Shown here piece after piece: positions 56,045 through 64,000 of a DNA stretch of 64,000 nucleotides. A model generated the notes under the pieces. That model saw only the letters and a program-made list of their open reading frames with translations. It was not told the DNA's origin and did no database searches. Both the position numbers and the translations under genes were made by a program. The DNA is taken from assembly GCA_947465395.1 (NCBI GenBank), contig CANIAL010000007.1, forward strand, positions 1-64,000, written 5' to 3'. Source of the DNA: Alphaproteobacteria bacterium. Its GTDB lineage: Bacteria > Pseudomonadota > Alphaproteobacteria > Micropepsales > Micropepsaceae. Position 1 is the stretch's first letter; every line of letters starts with the position of its first letter.

Positions 56045-56846
56045 CCCCTTTTTTCGCCAGCTTTGGCAAATGTTCCAGGATGGCGGCATTCAGCGCGGGC
56101 GCCGCCGCGATGCTGGCGCCCTGGGTGGCGGGGGCCAGGTTATAGACGGGCCGTGCGCCGTCCGCGCCGCACAGGATGCCGCCCGCCTCGGCCAGGATGA
56201 TGTCCGCCGCCGCAAGGTCCCAGTCGCGCTTGACGGTCAGGCTGACCATGGCGTCGAAACGCCCCGCCGCCACCAGCGCCAGGCGATAGGCGATGGAGCT
56301 GAAATTTTCGATCGTCATGGCCGGCCAATGATTGGCGGGATCTTCAAACAACGCCTTCTGGCCCAGCATGCGGCAACCCGCCAGTATGGCGTGGGTGCCG
56401 ACATGGATAGGCGCGCCGTTCAGATGCGCGCCGCCGCCGAGATGGGCCGTGAAACATTCATCGGTGGCGGGATTGAAGACCACGCCCGCCAGCGGGCGGC
56501 CGGATTCCACCAACGCGATGCAGATGGTGAAGTGCGGGCGGTTTTTCAGGAAGGCCATGGTGCCGTCAATCGGGTCCACGATGAACAGCCGCGATGATTG
56601 CAGGCGCGCCGGATCGTCCACGCTTTCTTCCGACAGCCAGCCATGGTCCGGCCGCGCCGCACGCAGACTGGTTTTGAGAAAAGCGTCTATGGCCAGGTCG
56701 GCTTCGGTGACGGGGCTGCCGCCCGACTTGCTCCAGCTTTTGTAATCGCCGCCGAAAAATTTCAGGGCGATCTTGCCCGCTTCGCGCGCTTTTTCTTCCA
56801 GCAGCGCCAGTTCGGATTTCAGCGCCTGTGCCTCAGGCCCCGGCAA
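56040..56846 (-). CDS. cysQ: Inositol-phosphatase-family 3'(2'),5'-bisphosphate nucleotidase (CysQ-like)
   Basis: 268 aa. Metal motif I is LSEESVDDP (E73/E74) with DPIDGT (D91-T96), and WDLAAADIILAEAGG near 208. It probably hydrolyses pAp or inositol phosphate. The start is uncertain: TTG at 56846 overlaps the pmbA end by 14 bp and no ATG lies close by. The lipid A context fits the usual alphaproteobacterial order. Confidence 0.88.
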   Translation of the reverse strand: MPGPEAQALKSELALLEEKAREAGKIALKFFGGDYKSWSKSGGSPVTEADLAIDAFLKTSLRAARPDHGWLSEESVDDPARLQSSRLFIVDPIDGTMAFLKNRPHFTICIALVESGRPLAGVVFNPATDECFTAHLGGGAHLNGAPIHVGTHAILAGCRMLGQKALFEDPANHWPAMTIENFSSIAYRLALVAAGRFDAMVSLTVKRDWDLAAADIILAEAGGILCGADGARPVYNLAPATQGASIAAAPALNAAILEHLPKLAKKGA

Positions 56847-58170
56847 TCGTCATGCCCTCGATGCGGATGGTGGGGGCGTTGGTGCCATAGCGGAAGACCA
56901 GATCGCTGGCGGGGGTCAGGTTCAGGAACATGTCTTTCAGGTTGCCCGCGATGGTGACTTCCGAAACAGCGAAGGCGATCTGGCCATTTTCGATCCAGAA
57001 ACCGGCGGCACCGCGGCTGTAATCGCCGGTGACGCCATTGACGCCCATGCCCATCAGTTCGGTGACGTAAAAGCCTTGGCGGATATCGGCGATCAGCTCT
57101 TCCGGCGAAAGCGCGCCCGGCTCCATATAGAGATTGGTGGCGGAAGGATGCGGCGGCCCGCCGGTGCCGCGCGCGGCATGGCCCGTTGTTTCAACGCCCA
57201 ACTGCCGGGCGCTGGCGCAATCCAGCAGCCAGGTGGTGAGGCGGCCCTTGTCTATCAGGGCGCGGCGCTGGTTGGCGACGCCTTCACCATCGAACGGCTT
57301 GGAACGCTGGCCGCGCAGACGATGCGGATCATCCATCACCGTGATGCCGGGGCCGAACACGGGCTGGCCCATGCGGTCTTTCAGGAAGCTGACGCCGCGC
57401 GCGATGGCCGCGCCCGAGATGGCGCCCGCGAAATGGCCCAGCAGGCCTGCGGATTCGCGGGTGTCGAAAATCACCGGCACGCTTTGGGATTTCACCTTGC
57501 GGGGATTGAGGCGCTTGACGGCCCGTTCGCCCGCGCTGGTGCCGATCTCGGCGGCGCTTTTCAAATCGCTGGCATGGCGGGCGGAGGCCTGGTCGTAATC
57601 GCGTTCCATGCCGGTGCCTTCACCGGCCAGCACCGCCACGCCGATGCCATGGCTGGTGCCGGCATAGCGGCCATAGAAACCTTCGCTGGTGGCGAGCGCC
57701 ACCGCGGCGCGGGAAAAGGATGCACCGCCGCCTTCGGAATTGGTGACGCCGGGAACGGCCAGGGCCGCGGCTTCGCAGTCGCGCGCGCGGTCAACCAATG
57801 TTTCCGGCGCGGGTTCGGTTTTGTCTTCGAGATCAAGCGCGGGAATGGCTTTTGCCAGGCGGTCTTTCGGCGCCAGGCCCGCATATTTGTCTTCCGGGGC
57901 CAGCCGCGCCATGGCCAGCGCCCGGCCGGGCAAACCGTCAAGCGCATCGTTGCTGAAATCGCAGGAGGAGACGAAGGCCACCCGGTTGCCCACGAAAACC
58001 CGCAGGCCCAGATCGGCGCTTTCACTGCGCTCCACATCTTCCAGCTTGCCCAAACGATAGGAAACACTGGCCGAGACATTTTCCACGAACAGGGCATCGG
58101 CGGCGTCGGCGCCCGTCTTCATGGCGCCGTCTATCGCCGCCTGCAGGATTTTCTCGGGATCATGGGCCAT
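56833..58170 (-). CDS. pmbA: TldD/PmbA-family metallopeptidase subunit
   Basis: 445 aa from MAHDPEKILQ. ESADLGLRVFVGNRVAFVSS, RLNPRKVKSQSVPVIFDTRESAGLL and DDPHRLRGQRSKPFDGEGV mark the PmbA (TldE) branch. GVTGDYSRGAAGFWIENGQIAFAVSEVTIAGN lies near the end. With TldD it trims peptides such as microcin precursors. The tldD gene is not in this window. Confidence 0.93.
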   Translation of the reverse strand: MAHDPEKILQAAIDGAMKTGADAADALFVENVSASVSYRLGKLEDVERSESADLGLRVFVGNRVAFVSSCDFSNDALDGLPGRALAMARLAPEDKYAGLAPKDRLAKAIPALDLEDKTEPAPETLVDRARDCEAAALAVPGVTNSEGGGASFSRAAVALATSEGFYGRYAGTSHGIGVAVLAGEGTGMERDYDQASARHASDLKSAAEIGTSAGERAVKRLNPRKVKSQSVPVIFDTRESAGLLGHFAGAISGAAIARGVSFLKDRMGQPVFGPGITVMDDPHRLRGQRSKPFDGEGVANQRRALIDKGRLTTWLLDCASARQLGVETTGHAARGTGGPPHPSATNLYMEPGALSPEELIADIRQGFYVTELMGMGVNGVTGDYSRGAAGFWIENGQIAFAVSEVTIAGNLKDMFLNLTPASDLVFRYGTNAPTIRIEGMTIAGA

Positions 58171-58217
58171 GGCGTTTCGATGCCGCAAAGACAGGGCGCG
58201 GTCAAGCTTTCGGGGTG

Positions 58218-59261
58218 CTATTGCGTGCTGGAAGTGGTCCCGGAATCGGCTTTTGCGTCCTTGTCCTTGTAGGCGAAAAGGGCAGAGTGGCCGCGCACCG
58301 CCTCGCTGACATAAAGCTTGTTCTCCGCCCGCGCCAGATAGACATGCAGATGGCGCAGCACATCCATGCCGATCACGATATCGGGCAGGGTCAGCGTGGA
58401 TTCGCGCGTGACGAAGCGGCCCGGATCGCGCGAATGCATCTGGTCGGGAAGCACCAGGACCTTGAGGTTGCCCACCTCGACCCCTTCAAAGGTCAGGTTG
58501 GGAAATTTGTGGCTATAGACTTTCAGGCCGGGCGCGCCCTGCAAATCGTCCAGGCGCGGCATCTCCGGCGAGTCAGGGGTAAGGCCGAAAAGATTGCGCG
58601 CCACGTTCATGTTCATGCTGGTCTGCTGCGCGCCCGTGTCCAGCACCGCCTTCAGGGGGTGGCCATCCACCATCACATCCATGCTGATATGGCCGCGGTC
58701 CAGTCTTACCGGCACCACCGCGATATTGTCCGCCGGCCAATAGACCACCCGGCCATCGCAATGGTCGGGTGCGAAAGCCGTCAGCCGCGCCGCGCCGAAA
58801 TCCATGTCGATATCGGCATTGGCGAACATGTCGGTGGCCAGCACGCCGTCATAGGCGGGGATGCGGCCCAGCGTGGGATTGGGCGCCACCTGCAAGGCCA
58901 CGCGGTGCCTGTCCTGCGCGCCAAGGGTGAAATTATCGGCAGTGACGCGCGTGCTGGAGATATTGCCCGCCACGTCAAACAGGCGCGTGCGGCTGTATTC
59001 CTGGTGCAGGCGCAATTCCTGGGCGGTGTCGCGGCTGATCTGGCTGACCTGGCCGCCGGTATCCAGCAACAGGGACTTGGTCTGGCCTTCGATCTTCACC
59101 GGCACGAACATTTCGCTGCGCGCCGCCGTGGTCTGCATCTGCACGGAATTGAGGATACGCAAGGGGCCGCAGGCCGGCGCATCCGCCGGTGTTTCGGCGC
59201 GTGCCGATGACAGCATCGCGGCAAGGAAGGCGGGCGCCAACCCGATAAGGGATTTTTTCAT
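58218..59261 (-). CDS. Secreted bilobed retropepsin/pepsin-like protein, paralogue 1
   Basis: 347 aa from MKKSLIGLAPAF, signal peptide about 1-22. Two aspartic-protease-like lobes each carry a D-T-G: SLLLDTGGQVSQIS (Asp67) and KAVLDTGAQQTSMN (Asp208). Each lobe also has a hydrophobic second turn (DGVLATDMF at 138-146 and DIVIGMDVLRHL at 294-305). Between lobes lies DHCDGRVVYW, with Cys168 possibly bonded to Cys31. It is the most C-terminally extended paralogue (KDKDAKADSG tail). Both catalytic Asp are kept, so activity is plausible. Confidence 0.85.
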   Translation of the reverse strand: MKKSLIGLAPAFLAAMLSSARAETPADAPACGPLRILNSVQMQTTAARSEMFVPVKIEGQTKSLLLDTGGQVSQISRDTAQELRLHQEYSRTRLFDVAGNISSTRVTADNFTLGAQDRHRVALQVAPNPTLGRIPAYDGVLATDMFANADIDMDFGAARLTAFAPDHCDGRVVYWPADNIAVVPVRLDRGHISMDVMVDGHPLKAVLDTGAQQTSMNMNVARNLFGLTPDSPEMPRLDDLQGAPGLKVYSHKFPNLTFEGVEVGNLKVLVLPDQMHSRDPGRFVTRESTLTLPDIVIGMDVLRHLHVYLARAENKLYVSEAVRGHSALFAYKDKDAKADSGTTSSTQ

Positions 59262-59303
59262 GCCACCAGAATAGCGCGGGGTCGCACGCTCCGCAAAGAT
59301 CAC

Positions 59304-60344
59304 CTATTTGGCGGGTTCCGCATTCTTGAACAGCACGGATTCGCCGGTTCCGGCGGGGGTGACATAGAGCTTGCCTTCGTTGAAGGCCACATACATGTGC
59401 AGGCGGCTGAGAACATCCATGCCGATCACCAGGTCCGGCATGGACCCCTTGGTGGTGGCGTGGCTGCCCAGCCGCATCTGGTCTGCTTCGGGGTCCGCCA
59501 CCAGCTTGTTATTCTGGAGCAGGACGTTCAGATTCTTAACCGCCACGCCCGCAAAACCCAGCGATGCGAAAACATGGCTGAAGACCTGTTGGCCCTTGGA
59601 ATCGCGCAAGCCCTCCACGGGAACCATGTCCTTGCCTTCGCGCACGCCGAAGCGGGATTCACCGATGCCGCGCCGCATGGTGGTGCGCGATGCGCCCGTA
59701 TCAATCACCGCGTCAATGCTGCGCCCGTCAATGGTCACCGGCACGATGATCTGGTCGTCCACCCGCTCCATGGCCACGACAGCGACGCTGTCATGCGGCC
59801 AATAGACCACCTGGGCGGGACAATGAAACGAATCGAAATAGTTGAGGCGATGGGCGCCGAAGTCCATGTCCAGGTCATAGAGCTTGAACAAATCCATCCC
59901 CAGATAGCCGTCATAGGGCTTGGCCTTGCCCAGCTCGGGATCGGCGGCGATCTGGAACTGGATTCCCGACCCGTTGACCGAACCCATGCCGAAGCTGGTG
60001 GTGGAAACGCGCACGCGGGCGGCATCCGTCTTGACGGCGCCGCGCACATCCACGGCGCGGAGCTGGTTGAAATCAACTTTCTCGAATTCCGGGAGCTGTA
60101 ATTCCCTGACCGTGGCTGCGGAAACCTGGCCCACCGGCGTGCCGGTTGAAACCAGCAGTTTCCTGGCGGCGCCATTGATGGTCACCGGCACCATCATGGT
60201 GTTTTCGCCCGGCACCGGCAGCAGGTTGACGCTGTTGAGGATATGCAACGGCGCGCAGCTTGGCGTTTGCGCCTGCGCTGCGCCGGACAGCATGCTAGCC
60301 ATGGTGCCGGCCATCACGGCCAGCCAACAAGCGGAGTTTTTCAT
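59304..60344 (-). CDS. Secreted bilobed retropepsin/pepsin-like protein, paralogue 2 (first Asp lost)
   Basis: 346 aa, signal MKNSACWLAVMAGTMASMLSGAAQA. The N-lobe site is LLVSTGTPVGQVS: S66-T-G replaces D-T-G. The C-lobe keeps AVIDTGASRTTMR (Asp215). DLVIGMDVLSRLHMYVAFNEGKLYVTPAG ends the fold. The linker FHCPAQVVYW keeps the Cys. With a single Asp it cannot make a normal bilobed dyad alone, so it may be inactive, a dimer, or a binding protein. 42 bp from paralogue 1. Confidence 0.85.
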   Translation of the reverse strand: MKNSACWLAVMAGTMASMLSGAAQAQTPSCAPLHILNSVNLLPVPGENTMMVPVTINGAARKLLVSTGTPVGQVSAATVRELQLPEFEKVDFNQLRAVDVRGAVKTDAARVRVSTTSFGMGSVNGSGIQFQIAADPELGKAKPYDGYLGMDLFKLYDLDMDFGAHRLNYFDSFHCPAQVVYWPHDSVAVVAMERVDDQIIVPVTIDGRSIDAVIDTGASRTTMRRGIGESRFGVREGKDMVPVEGLRDSKGQQVFSHVFASLGFAGVAVKNLNVLLQNNKLVADPEADQMRLGSHATTKGSMPDLVIGMDVLSRLHMYVAFNEGKLYVTPAGTGESVLFKNAEPAK

Positions 60345-60394
60345 TTCAGCCTCCCCAGACCCTTGATCAGTCTAGCACAGGCAGGGGCAGTGGT

Positions 60395-61408
60395 TCAGGG
60401 GGCAGGGGCCGGCGCGGCAGTCTTGAAAAGCACGGATTCCCCGGTCCCGGCGGGGGTGATGTAGAGCTTCTTTTCACCGTAAGCGACATAGATGTGCAGC
60501 TTCTTCAGCACGTTCATCCCGATGATCAGGGAATCGCTCGCCCGGCTATAGGGATCCTGAGTTGCGCCCCTGATGCTGTTGGTCGCCAGCCGTGCGCCCA
60601 TGCGGTCTGCCACGACTGTGATTTTGGGATTCGCGACGGTCAGGCCTTCAATGGTTATGCTGCTGAAGGCGTGGCTGTAACTGTTCAGCTTGTTCTCTTT
60701 CGTCAACGCCTCGTCCAGTGGCGCGTCCGGCGAACCGGGCGCGATGGCAAAGGATTTCTGGAACTAGGTGGCGCTCATAAGCGTGTCGGTGGAGCCGGTA
60801 TCAATCATGGCCAACATCTGGTGGCCATCCACCAAGACCGGGAAATTGATGTGACTGCTCCGGTCCGTAAAGGGAATGATGGCCAAAGGGCGTTCGGCCC
60901 AATAGGCGACCTTGCCTTCGCAATGATCCTGGGAAAAATAATTCAGGCGTGATGCGCCGAAATCAAAATCCACGTCATATTGAAGAAACAGATCGCGGGC
61001 CAGAATTCCGTCAAGGCCATCGTCCGTCATCTGCGCCGATGGCGATACCTGCAGGATAACGTCCTTGCCGCCCTGAATGCCCATCACGAATGTCTTGGCG
61101 GTGACCTTGGTGTCGGAATCATTGCCGTACATGTCGAACAGTTGCCAGCGACTGGCTTCTTCCTTCATGCCCAGCGACTTTGCGGCAGCTCGGGAAATCT
61201 GCGAAATGCCACCGCCCGTATCCAGAAGAAATTTCTGCGGCTTGTCGTTGACAGTGACGGGAACAAGGTAGCGCGTGCCATCCTTGTTGGCTTCCATCTT
61301 TATGGTGTTGAGAATTTGCAGCGGCTTGCAGTCGGCGGCGTGTGCGGCCTGGCCGGTGATCGCAAAGAGCATTGCCCCCAGGCATGAAATCCAATGTATT
61401 TTTTTCAT
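60395..61408 (-). pseudogene. Bilobed retropepsin/pepsin-like paralogue 3, interrupted by in-frame TAG
   Basis: From MKKIHWISCLGAM (signal ending GQAAHA) the frame reads to codon 214. There TAG (60764-60766) stops it directly after the second site MIDTGSTDTLMSAT. The remaining 122 codons continue in the same frame (FQKSFAIAPGSPDAPL to KTAAPAPAP) and match the paralogues. The first D-T-G (Asp63) and second (Asp203) are intact. Alignment with paralogue 4 places Glu at the stop, so GAG to TAG is likely. The gene is otherwise undecayed, which suggests a recent mutation, suppression or an assembly error. A truncated 214-aa product is possible. Confidence 0.8.
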
Positions 61409-61436
61409 CGTTCCCCCAATGTTTATTGTCCACCCG

Positions 61437-62453
61437 TCAATTCGCGGGCGGTGTTGGCGCGGCGTTCTTGAACAGCACGGATTCCCCGGTCCCGGCGGGG
61501 GAGATATAAAGTTTCTTTTCGCCATAGGCGATGTAGACGTGCAATTGCTTCAGAACTTTCACGCCCAGGATCACGGGCGGCAATTTTGGATGGGGGTCAT
61601 CCATCAGCATGGTGTGAATGCTGGTGCTGGGCGCACGCTGCGACGAAACGCGGTCATTCACGATGTTGATATTGGGATTGGCGATTGTCACGCCTTCAAT
61701 GGCCAGGTTGCCGAAGCTGTGGGAGTAATATTTCAGATCACTGTCGCTCTGCGATTCGCGCAGCAAGGGGGCTTCGGGTGATCCCGCCTTGACGCCAAAC
61801 ACCCGGTCCAGCTCATCGGCATTCATCAGCGTGTCGGCGCCGGTATCGATGATGGCCGGCAAGTCCTTGCCGTCGATGGTGACGGGTATGTTGATATGGT
61901 AACCCGTGACCGTGAAAGGCACGACCGCGATGGGCCGCTCGGTCCAGTACACCACCTTGCCGTCGCAATGATCCTGGGAAAAGTAATTCAGGCGCATGGC
62001 GCCGAAATCCATGTCCACATCGAATTTGCGGAACATGTCCCCGGCCAGGATGCCGTCCACGCCTTCGCGGGGAAGGTCTGACGCGATTGCCACCTGAAGA
62101 TCGAGATTTTTTCCCTGCATGACCCCCATTTCAAAAGTCTTTGCGATGACCTTGGTCTGGGACTTGTTGCCATGCACGTCGATGATATGGATGTTGCTTC
62201 CCCGCTCCGTCATGCCCATGGCGCTGGCGGCTTCACGGGTAATTTCTGTGACCACCCCGCCCGTGTCCAGCAGGAATTTCAGCGGCTTGCCATCAATGGT
62301 GACCGGCACGATATAGCGTGCGCCGTTGCCGATGCTTTCTATCTTGACGCTGTTGATGATCGCCAGCGGCTTGCAATCGGCCGCGTGTGCCGCGCCCGCC
62401 AATGTCAGAAAAACGGATGCAACACACATGAATATGCGTGCGGTTGTTCGCAT
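61437..62453 (-). CDS. Secreted bilobed retropepsin/pepsin-like protein, paralogue 4
   Basis: 338 aa from MRTTARIFMCVAS, signal to about AAHAA. First site KFLLDTGGVVTEIT (Asp63), second AIIDTGADTLMNADEL (Asp203). Cysteines 27 and 163 (ADCKPL and QDHCDGKVVYW) are the only two in the mature chain. Closest to paralogue 3: shared HAADCKPL, LNYFSQDHC and the ending KKLYISPAGTGESVLFK. The first gene of the array in transcription order, 28 bp before paralogue 3. Confidence 0.87.
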   Translation of the reverse strand: MRTTARIFMCVASVFLTLAGAAHAADCKPLAIINSVKIESIGNGARYIVPVTIDGKPLKFLLDTGGVVTEITREAASAMGMTERGSNIHIIDVHGNKSQTKVIAKTFEMGVMQGKNLDLQVAIASDLPREGVDGILAGDMFRKFDVDMDFGAMRLNYFSQDHCDGKVVYWTERPIAVVPFTVTGYHINIPVTIDGKDLPAIIDTGADTLMNADELDRVFGVKAGSPEAPLLRESQSDSDLKYYSHSFGNLAIEGVTIANPNINIVNDRVSSQRAPSTSIHTMLMDDPHPKLPPVILGVKVLKQLHVYIAYGEKKLYISPAGTGESVLFKNAAPTPPAN

Positions 62454-62561
62454 CGCTACCCCCAAGCCCTGTCCCCGGCGCAAGTGGGCCATAAAATGCG
62501 CTGTAAAATCAAACGCGATTGATTTTAAAGGCCTATTTCCAGCCGCGCGCGGACGCGCGCA

Positions 62562-64000
62562 TTACTTCCAAATGGGTTTGCCGGTTCCCGGCAAACCCAG
62601 GCGCGGCCATTTCTCGGTCACGGTGCGGACCACGTCGTCGTCCATCGTGATCTTGCGGCCCCATTCGCGATTGGTTTCCGGCGGCAGCTTGTTGGTGGCG
62701 TCCAGCCCGATCTTGCTGCCCAGTCCGCTGACGGGCGAGGCGAAGTCCAGGTAATCAATCGGCGTGTTCTCGATCACCGTGATGTCGCGCGCCGGGTCCA
62801 TGCGGGTGGAGACGGCCCACATCACGTCTTTCCAGTCGCGCGCATTAATGTCGTCATCCACCACGATCACCCATTTGGTGTACATGAACTGGCGCAGGTA
62901 CGACCACACCGCCATCATCACCCGCTTGGCATGGCCGGGGAACGCCTTCTTCATGCTGACCACCGCGATGCGGTAGCTGCAGCCTTCCGGCGGCAGCCAG
63001 AAATCCACGATCTCGGGAAATTGCTGCTTGATCAGCGGCACGAAGACTTCGTTCAGCGCCTCGCCCAGGATGGACGGCTCATCCGGCGGCCGCCCGGTAT
63101 AGGTGGATAGGTAAATCGGATTCTTCCGCATGGTAATGGCGGTGGCGGTGAAAACCGGAAACTGTTCCACCGCATTGTAATAGCCGGTATGATCGCCATA
63201 GGGGCCTTCGTCGCGGTAATCCGACAGCGACACGGTGCCTTCGATCACGATCTCGGCCTCGGCCGGTACTTTCAGCGGCTGGCTGACGCAATCGGCCAGC
63301 ACCATCCGCTCGCCGCGCAGCAATCCCGCGAATTGATACTCCGACAATGTTTCCGGCACCGGCGTGACTGCCGCCAGGATGATGCCGGGGTCCGCGCCCA
63401 GCACGATGGCGGCGGGCAACGGTTCCGGCTTCGCCGCGCCCCACCGCTGGTGATGCTGCGCGCCGCCGCGATGCTTCAGCCAGCGCATGATGGCCTGGTT
63501 CTTTCCCAAGACCTGCATGCGGTAGATGCCCAGATTGTAATTGTCTTCGCGCGCATCGCTGGGGCCCTTGGTCACCACCAGCGGCCAGGTGATCAGCGGC
63601 GCCGGTTCGCCCGGCCAGCAGGTCTGGATGGGCAGGCGCGACAGGTCGATGTCATCGCCGCGCCAGACGATCTCCTGGCAGGCAGGCTTGCCCACGGTTT
63701 TCGGCTTCATGGCCAGCACGGTTTTCACCAGCGGCAGCAATCCGGCCGCTTCGCTTAATGACCGCGGCGGCTGGGGCTGGCGAAGCTGCGCCAGCAATTC
63801 GCCCACCTCGCGCAAATCCAGCGCGGTGCTGCGTTCACGATCTCCCATGGTCACGCCCATGGCCACGCGCTTGATGGTGCCGAACAGGTTGACCAGCACC
63901 GGCATGTCGCTGGGGCTGCCGTCCGCCTTGACGGGCTTTTCGAAGATCACCGCCGGGCCGCCTGCGGCAATCAGGCGGGTCTGGATCTCGGTCATCTCCA
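62562..64000 (-). CDS. ubiD: UbiD-family decarboxylase, 5' truncated by the window edge
   Basis: At least 479 codons; the reading frame runs past 64000 ([10 protein letters not shown] near the edge is internal in the family, so about 30 residues are missing). [11 protein letters not shown] and [17 protein letters not shown] are the prenyl-FMN enzyme strings, with Glu-Asp-Arg-type residues in [38 protein letters not shown] is also typical. It decarboxylates octaprenyl-hydroxybenzoate in ubiquinone synthesis or a related aromatic acid. No ubiX in the window. Confidence 0.95.

Follow-up and report, generated by a model that had tools for sequence, protein, structure and literature searches.

The window, a stretch of alphaproteobacterial DNA of 64,000 nucleotides, holds four consecutive paralogous genes (A1 to A4) on the minus strand at 58218-62453, whose products resemble exported aspartic peptidases with two lobes in one chain. 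This arrangement raises the question of whether these proteins belong with the pepsins or with the retropepsins, and of how many of the four genes still encode an enzyme. The analysis indicates that the products of A1-A4 are probably aspartic peptidases that are exported and carry two retropepsin-like lobes in a single chain; A1 and A4 would be active and A3 would be a pseudoprotease, while A2 is interrupted.

The four genes were found to be separated by gaps of 28, 50, and 42 bp and to share 35-52% pairwise identity (Table 1), which agrees with the original prediction of four minus-strand paralogues 28-50 bp apart. When the N-termini were inspected by eye, all were Sec signal-peptide-like (MRTTARIFM...AHA/ADC in A1, MKKIHW...AHA/ADC in A2, MKNSAC...AQA/QT in A3, and MKKSLI...ARA/ET in A4), as had been proposed for each gene. 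The two D/S-T-G sites of each chain, expected about 140 residues apart, were at a distance of 140-149 residues. The IGMDVL-type second turn was exact in A3 and A4 and present as the variants IGMNVL in A2 and LGVKVL in A1, and the supposedly common ending ESVLFK was found in A1-A3, whereas A4 ended in HSALFA. The four genes are neither all intact nor equivalent: A2 contains an in-frame TAG, and A3 carries STG in place of the lobe-1 DTG, a loss of one catalytic Asp that the wording "D/S-T-G" had masked. The catalytic D-T/S-G was present in both lobes of A1, A4, and the interrupted A2, and missing from lobe 1 of A3, so that only A1 and A4 combine an uninterrupted gene with both DTG motifs. The array is thus genuine but was in part misread. 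It is of a kind already known, though little studied, and stands out as a variant by having two lobes in a single chain, by its tandem expansion in a conserved slot and by the retention of a lobe-1-deficient clade.

Table 1. Coordinates of the array genes, their motifs and the genes bordering the slot in the window.
Feature	Position	Strand	Remarks
ubiD (UbiD decarboxylase), upstream slot border	62562..63995	-	PF01977, E 2.9e-79
A1, exported two-lobed aspartic protease-like gene, 338 aa	61437..62453	-	both DTG present
A1 lobe-1 motif	62256-62267		DTGG
A1 lobe-2 motif	61836-61847		DTGA
A1 second turn	61551-61568		LGVKVL
A2, sister of A1, 52% identity	60395..61408	-	DTG at 61211-61222 and 60791-60802; TAG-interrupted
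A2 premature in-frame TAG, within lobe 2	60764..60766	-	
A3, two-lobed paralogue, 346 aa	59304..60344	-	lobe-1 STGT 60138-60149; lobe-2 DTGA 59691-59702
A4, two-lobed aspartic protease-like gene, 347 aa	58218..59261	-	DTG at 59052-59063 and 58629-58640; IGMDVL 58356-58373
pmbA/tldE (PmbA/TldD metallopeptidase family), downstream slot border	56833..58188	-	PF19289, E 1.9e-76

A1 (61.8 and 48.1 bits), A3 (48.8 and 46.1 bits), and A4 (82.0 and 73.7 bits) scored above the curated cut-off of PF13650/PF13975, with two matched stretches in each chain and an E value of 1.1e-16 for A1 against PF13650. With such two-lobe matches, a chance origin of the pattern is untenable. When PF13650 was run on the window's genome, each of the four genes gave the two matches per chain that the original prediction had called for, with lobe 1 of A3 below the cut-off at 22.1 bits; the nine lobe matches in this genome were all located in A1-A4 and in one distant paralogue on contig C16. 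The best score against TIGR02281 (clan AA aspartic protease) was 46.3 bits, for A4, compared to a cut-off of 57.95. With two lobes per chain, A1-A4 depart from the plan of peptidase family A2, in which a one-lobe chain is active as a homodimer, and the layout of peptidase family A1, two lobes with one Asp motif each, was found in A1 and A4 only. These findings show that A1-A4 are pepsin-like in layout and retropepsin-like (PF13650/PF13975) in sequence.

The TAG in A2 falls 12 codons past the start of the second DTG. Beyond it the frame is open down to 60395, and the normal end retains IGMNVLKKLHIYVAYGEKKLY. In a tree of 115 members, A1 and A2 were sisters with support of 100/99. A single copy is present in their nearest relatives, L065 and L067, so the duplication that produced A2 is confined to the window's lineage. 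A2 would appear to be a recently interrupted duplicate of A1. Recoding of the TAG was rejected as an explanation because the stops of relatives are equally TAG, TGA, and TAA; the gene is more probably interrupted, or the assembly in error at this point. An interruption similar in kind was observed in L048/L099 (genome G015), where an in-frame TAG shortly past the lobe-1 motif divides the copy in the slot.

In A3, Ser replaces the catalytic Asp of lobe 1 and the lobe-2 DTGA is intact. The canonical lobe-1 DTG was absent from all seven members of the A3 clade (STG, STG, STS, DLS, DIG, DIG, and AIS). In the sole close pair of A3 orthologues measured (L065/L066), dN/dS was 0.18, compared to 0.03-0.07 in close A4 pairs; the L065/L066 pair is under purifying selection, and its constraint is weaker than that of the intact A4-type enzyme. 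The fifth paralogue in the window's genome (L005, G000:C16:8262-9278) has neither DTG and is a member of the A3 clade. Loss of the lobe-1 DTG with the lobe-2 motif kept was also observed in the two-lobed L187, L191, and L195, from other alphaproteobacterial families.

The A4 stop lies 29 bp from the pmbA/tldE frame, beyond which are an inositol monophosphatase-type gene, an ABC transporter (ABC_membrane/ABC_tran), a Kdo transferase and lpxK. The order ubiD, slot, pmbA, IMPase, ABC transporter, Kdo transferase and lpxK is conserved genus-wide, with zero to four aspartic-protease-like genes in the slot (seen in the window at 56833-63995 and in L025, L027, L031, L065-L069, L079, and L086). One to three family frames were found between ubiD and pmbA at 34 loci, some genomes having been fetched twice. 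Among the readable slots of the genus, family genes were present in approximately 21 of 30 genomes and a remnant in G005, the slots of G013 and G025 were empty (29-30 bp), and the rest held other or unrecognized content. Family members were also observed beside the B12-dependent methionine synthase gene (metH) at seven loci (L029, L063, L100, L101, L102, L103, and L111) that are 76-85% identical to each other, L029 and L100 being the same. Other members adjoin unrelated genes, and because neighbors vary between loci, no pathway is implied. Functional coupling to pmbA was rejected in view of the empty slots of G013 and G025 and of the many members located elsewhere, at metH or unrelated genes; pmbA need not be a partner. 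The ubiD-pmbA slot is a duplication-prone site between core genes and not a sign of a shared pathway, and the set probably grew there by tandem duplication. Scans for promoters and terminators found no signal beyond the level of shuffled sequences.

The TAG in A2, the remnant or interrupted copies in relatives such as L133 and L048/L099, and the empty slots would all be expected of a degrading duplicate array under little selection, with A2 and A3 as outgoing pseudogenes and organized function limited to one or two working copies. We consider this unlikely, since A3-type frames are open in several genomes with the same motif absent and with the dN/dS of the close pair at 0.18, and since the gene order A1/A2-type, A3-type, A4-type is preserved in L065. 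A3 is more readily understood as a pseudoprotease that has been kept, with its fold preserved and with a possible role in binding peptides or a partner.

Of the 36 other genomes of the window's genus, 32 had 1-11 family matches, many of them tandem, and four had no detected copy, indicating that the family is dispensable. The amplification suggested by the original prediction is borne out genus-wide, with up to 11 matches in one genome. In a genome scan with a set of close sequences, the nearest records were Alphaproteobacteria MAGs, and the named ones include Micropepsaceae/Rhizomicrobium MAGs and Rhizomicrobium electricum DSM 21034. With 1.77 Mb and 93.5% completeness, the assembly of the window's genome (G000) is smaller than the other genomes in the genus, which measure 2.2-5.0 Mb.

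When a strict D-T/S-G test was applied to the 115 aligned members, which are related to one another, both lobes passed in 83, lobe 1 alone failed in 12 (two of these being frames that end early at lobe 1) and both failed in 20. Failure of lobe 2 only was found in 0 of 115; L197, outside the set, shows this reverse pattern. All six members of the A4 orthologue clade carry DTG in both lobes, and Cys30 and Cys167 (A4 numbering) were invariant in 54 sequences. As about one-quarter of the relatives sampled are missing a full DTG in one lobe or both, catalysis is perhaps not the sole function of the family. It could even be mainly non-catalytic, an exported peptide-binding or inhibitor-like scaffold on which the DTG motifs of A1 and A4 are merely ancestral, a reading that gains from the conserved clade without canonical lobe-1 DTG, from the 32 of 115 members failing in at least one lobe and from the dispensability of the family in some genomes. 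It is nevertheless quite unlikely, because both motifs are kept in 72% of members and without exception in the A4 clade down to approximately 55% identity, and because dN/dS in close A4 pairs is only 0.03-0.07.

The AlphaFold2 model of A4 had a pLDDT of 85.5 and a pTM of 0.82 (54 related sequences), and that of A3 had a pLDDT of 79.5 and a pTM of 0.78 (31 sequences), with low confidence in lobe-1 residues 91-109 and the lobe-2 loop 281-300. The top PDB match for the A4 and A3 models was 9IY9 (VIA Z 21.5 and 20.9, respectively, approximately 255 aligned residues), the crystal structure of a "putative endopeptidase" or "Exported protein" from Bacteroides fragilis, released in 2025. Pepsins, renin, and plasmepsins came next (VIA Z approximately 17-19, 237-257 residues across both lobes), and a tethered HIV-1 protease dimer was also matched by Foldseek. 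In the profile alignment, 9IY9 has two DTG sites at positions corresponding to those of the A4/A3 family, and its combination of an exported chain, two DTG lobes and the same fold was found in A1 and A4. Searches of papers on 9IY9 or on the window's protein family returned nothing. As both models align with pepsins over both lobes, the proposal of two lobes in a single chain on the pepsin plan stands. That the proteins are true pepsins (peptidase family A1, shewasin-like), acquired from eukaryotes or ancestral, is very improbable, for although the fold match covers the whole chain at Z approximately 17-19 and each chain has two lobes, none of A1-A4 matched PF00026 (pepsin, family A1) at E up to 1 while retropepsin-type families scored above the cut-off, a profile search of PDB sequences ranked 9IY9, Ddi1, tethered and retroviral proteases, and APRc first, and the lobes of the array family are still mutually similar, unlike pepsin lobes (PMC2761423).

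Lobe-1 and lobe-2 profiles, built from 84 members with both motifs, aligned over the full lobe with an hhalign probability of 99.1 and E of 1.3e-17 in that single comparison. PF13650 matches were found in 37 of 114 surveyed alphaproteobacterial genomes. Two matches within one frame of approximately 300-490 aa were read from the match table in seven of the 114, representing six families (G000, G061, G039, G047, G049, G099, and G152, several with tandem copies); most of the remaining positive genomes had a single lobe in a shorter frame. In a class-wide draw, the profile of the window's family matched 15 of 289 genomes at E up to 1e-10. In a tree of 27 lobe-1, 27 lobe-2, and 27 single-lobe sequences (132 columns), lobes grouped by position, the lobe-1 label requiring 3 changes compared to a shuffled mean of 22.8, and the single lobes formed one starred group. 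A single lobe-1 clade was not rejected (p-AU 0.15), 132 columns being too few for an exact count of fusions. Since lobes cluster by position across families, the fusion probably predates the window's genus, and an independent fusion in each family is disfavored.

These findings show that the two-lobed layout is sparse but old and reaches beyond the window's array. The earlier view that it is special to the array has to be given up, in light of the six alphaproteobacterial families, the position-wise clustering and the solved Bacteroides structure. How a one-lobe ancestor gave rise to the two lobes of pepsin has long been asked, and Rawlings and Bateman (PMC2761423) noted that these lobes have diverged too far for their sequences to show it. 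In the bacterial family both lobes are retropepsin-like and still alike, which makes it possible to trace the lobe duplication and to compare forms with one lobe, with two lobes and with half of the active site lost.

Under the preferred reading of exported two-lobed peptidases, each lobe of the modeled architecture would contribute one of the two catalytic Asp residues to a common cleft, and a homodimer would not be needed. The products are presumably exported to the periplasm, where, under oxidizing conditions, the invariant cysteine just behind the signal peptide is probably disulfide-bonded to the one in the linker between the lobes. Peptidase activity is expected of A1 and A4. The Ala following the lobe-2 DTG (DTGA) suggests, by analogy, a near-neutral pH optimum, a relationship argued for renin, retropepsin, and bacterial pepsins (PMC2761423). 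The array products most likely process or turn over envelope or imported peptides. A bolder view is that the bacterial bilobed retropepsin-like proteins are a lineage where a pepsin-type fusion is still legible in sequence, and that in this genus they form an exported multi-member system in which a selected pseudoprotease modulates or guides the active enzymes; we regard it as speculative and rather improbable. The conserved A3-type proteins also allow pseudoproteases among the aspartic peptidases to be tested in bacteria.

Among known systems, 9IY9 is similar to A1 and A4 in having two PF13650-like lobes per chain, a DTG in each and an exported designation, and differs from the array proteins in its low identity (14%), its approximately 150 extra N-terminal residues ahead of the bilobed part and its phylum. 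Shewasins and bacterial pepsins (family A1; PMC2761423, PMC4814920) share the bilobed single chain of A1-A4 but are predicted to be intracellular, belong to sequence family A1 and have lobes dissimilar in sequence. The alphaproteobacterial PF13650/PF13975 and TIGR02281 proteins are of the same lobe family, yet contain a single lobe of approximately 120 residues per chain and are presumed homodimers, in contrast to the two-lobed A1-A4. Pregnancy-associated glycoproteins and Bla g 2 are, like A3, retained and catalytically incomplete paralogues of active enzymes; they are eukaryotic pepsins of family A1, while A3 has retropepsin-like lobes. The RloA proteins of Pseudomonas are likewise secreted bacterial retropepsin-like peptidases with several per genome, and have redundant roles in osmotic stress and biofilm formation, but they were found to be single-lobe homodimers by crystal structure and SEC-MALS, whereas the array proteins are two-lobed (PMC12239564). 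RloA is the closest experimental guide to the array, though not one that is directly transferable to it.
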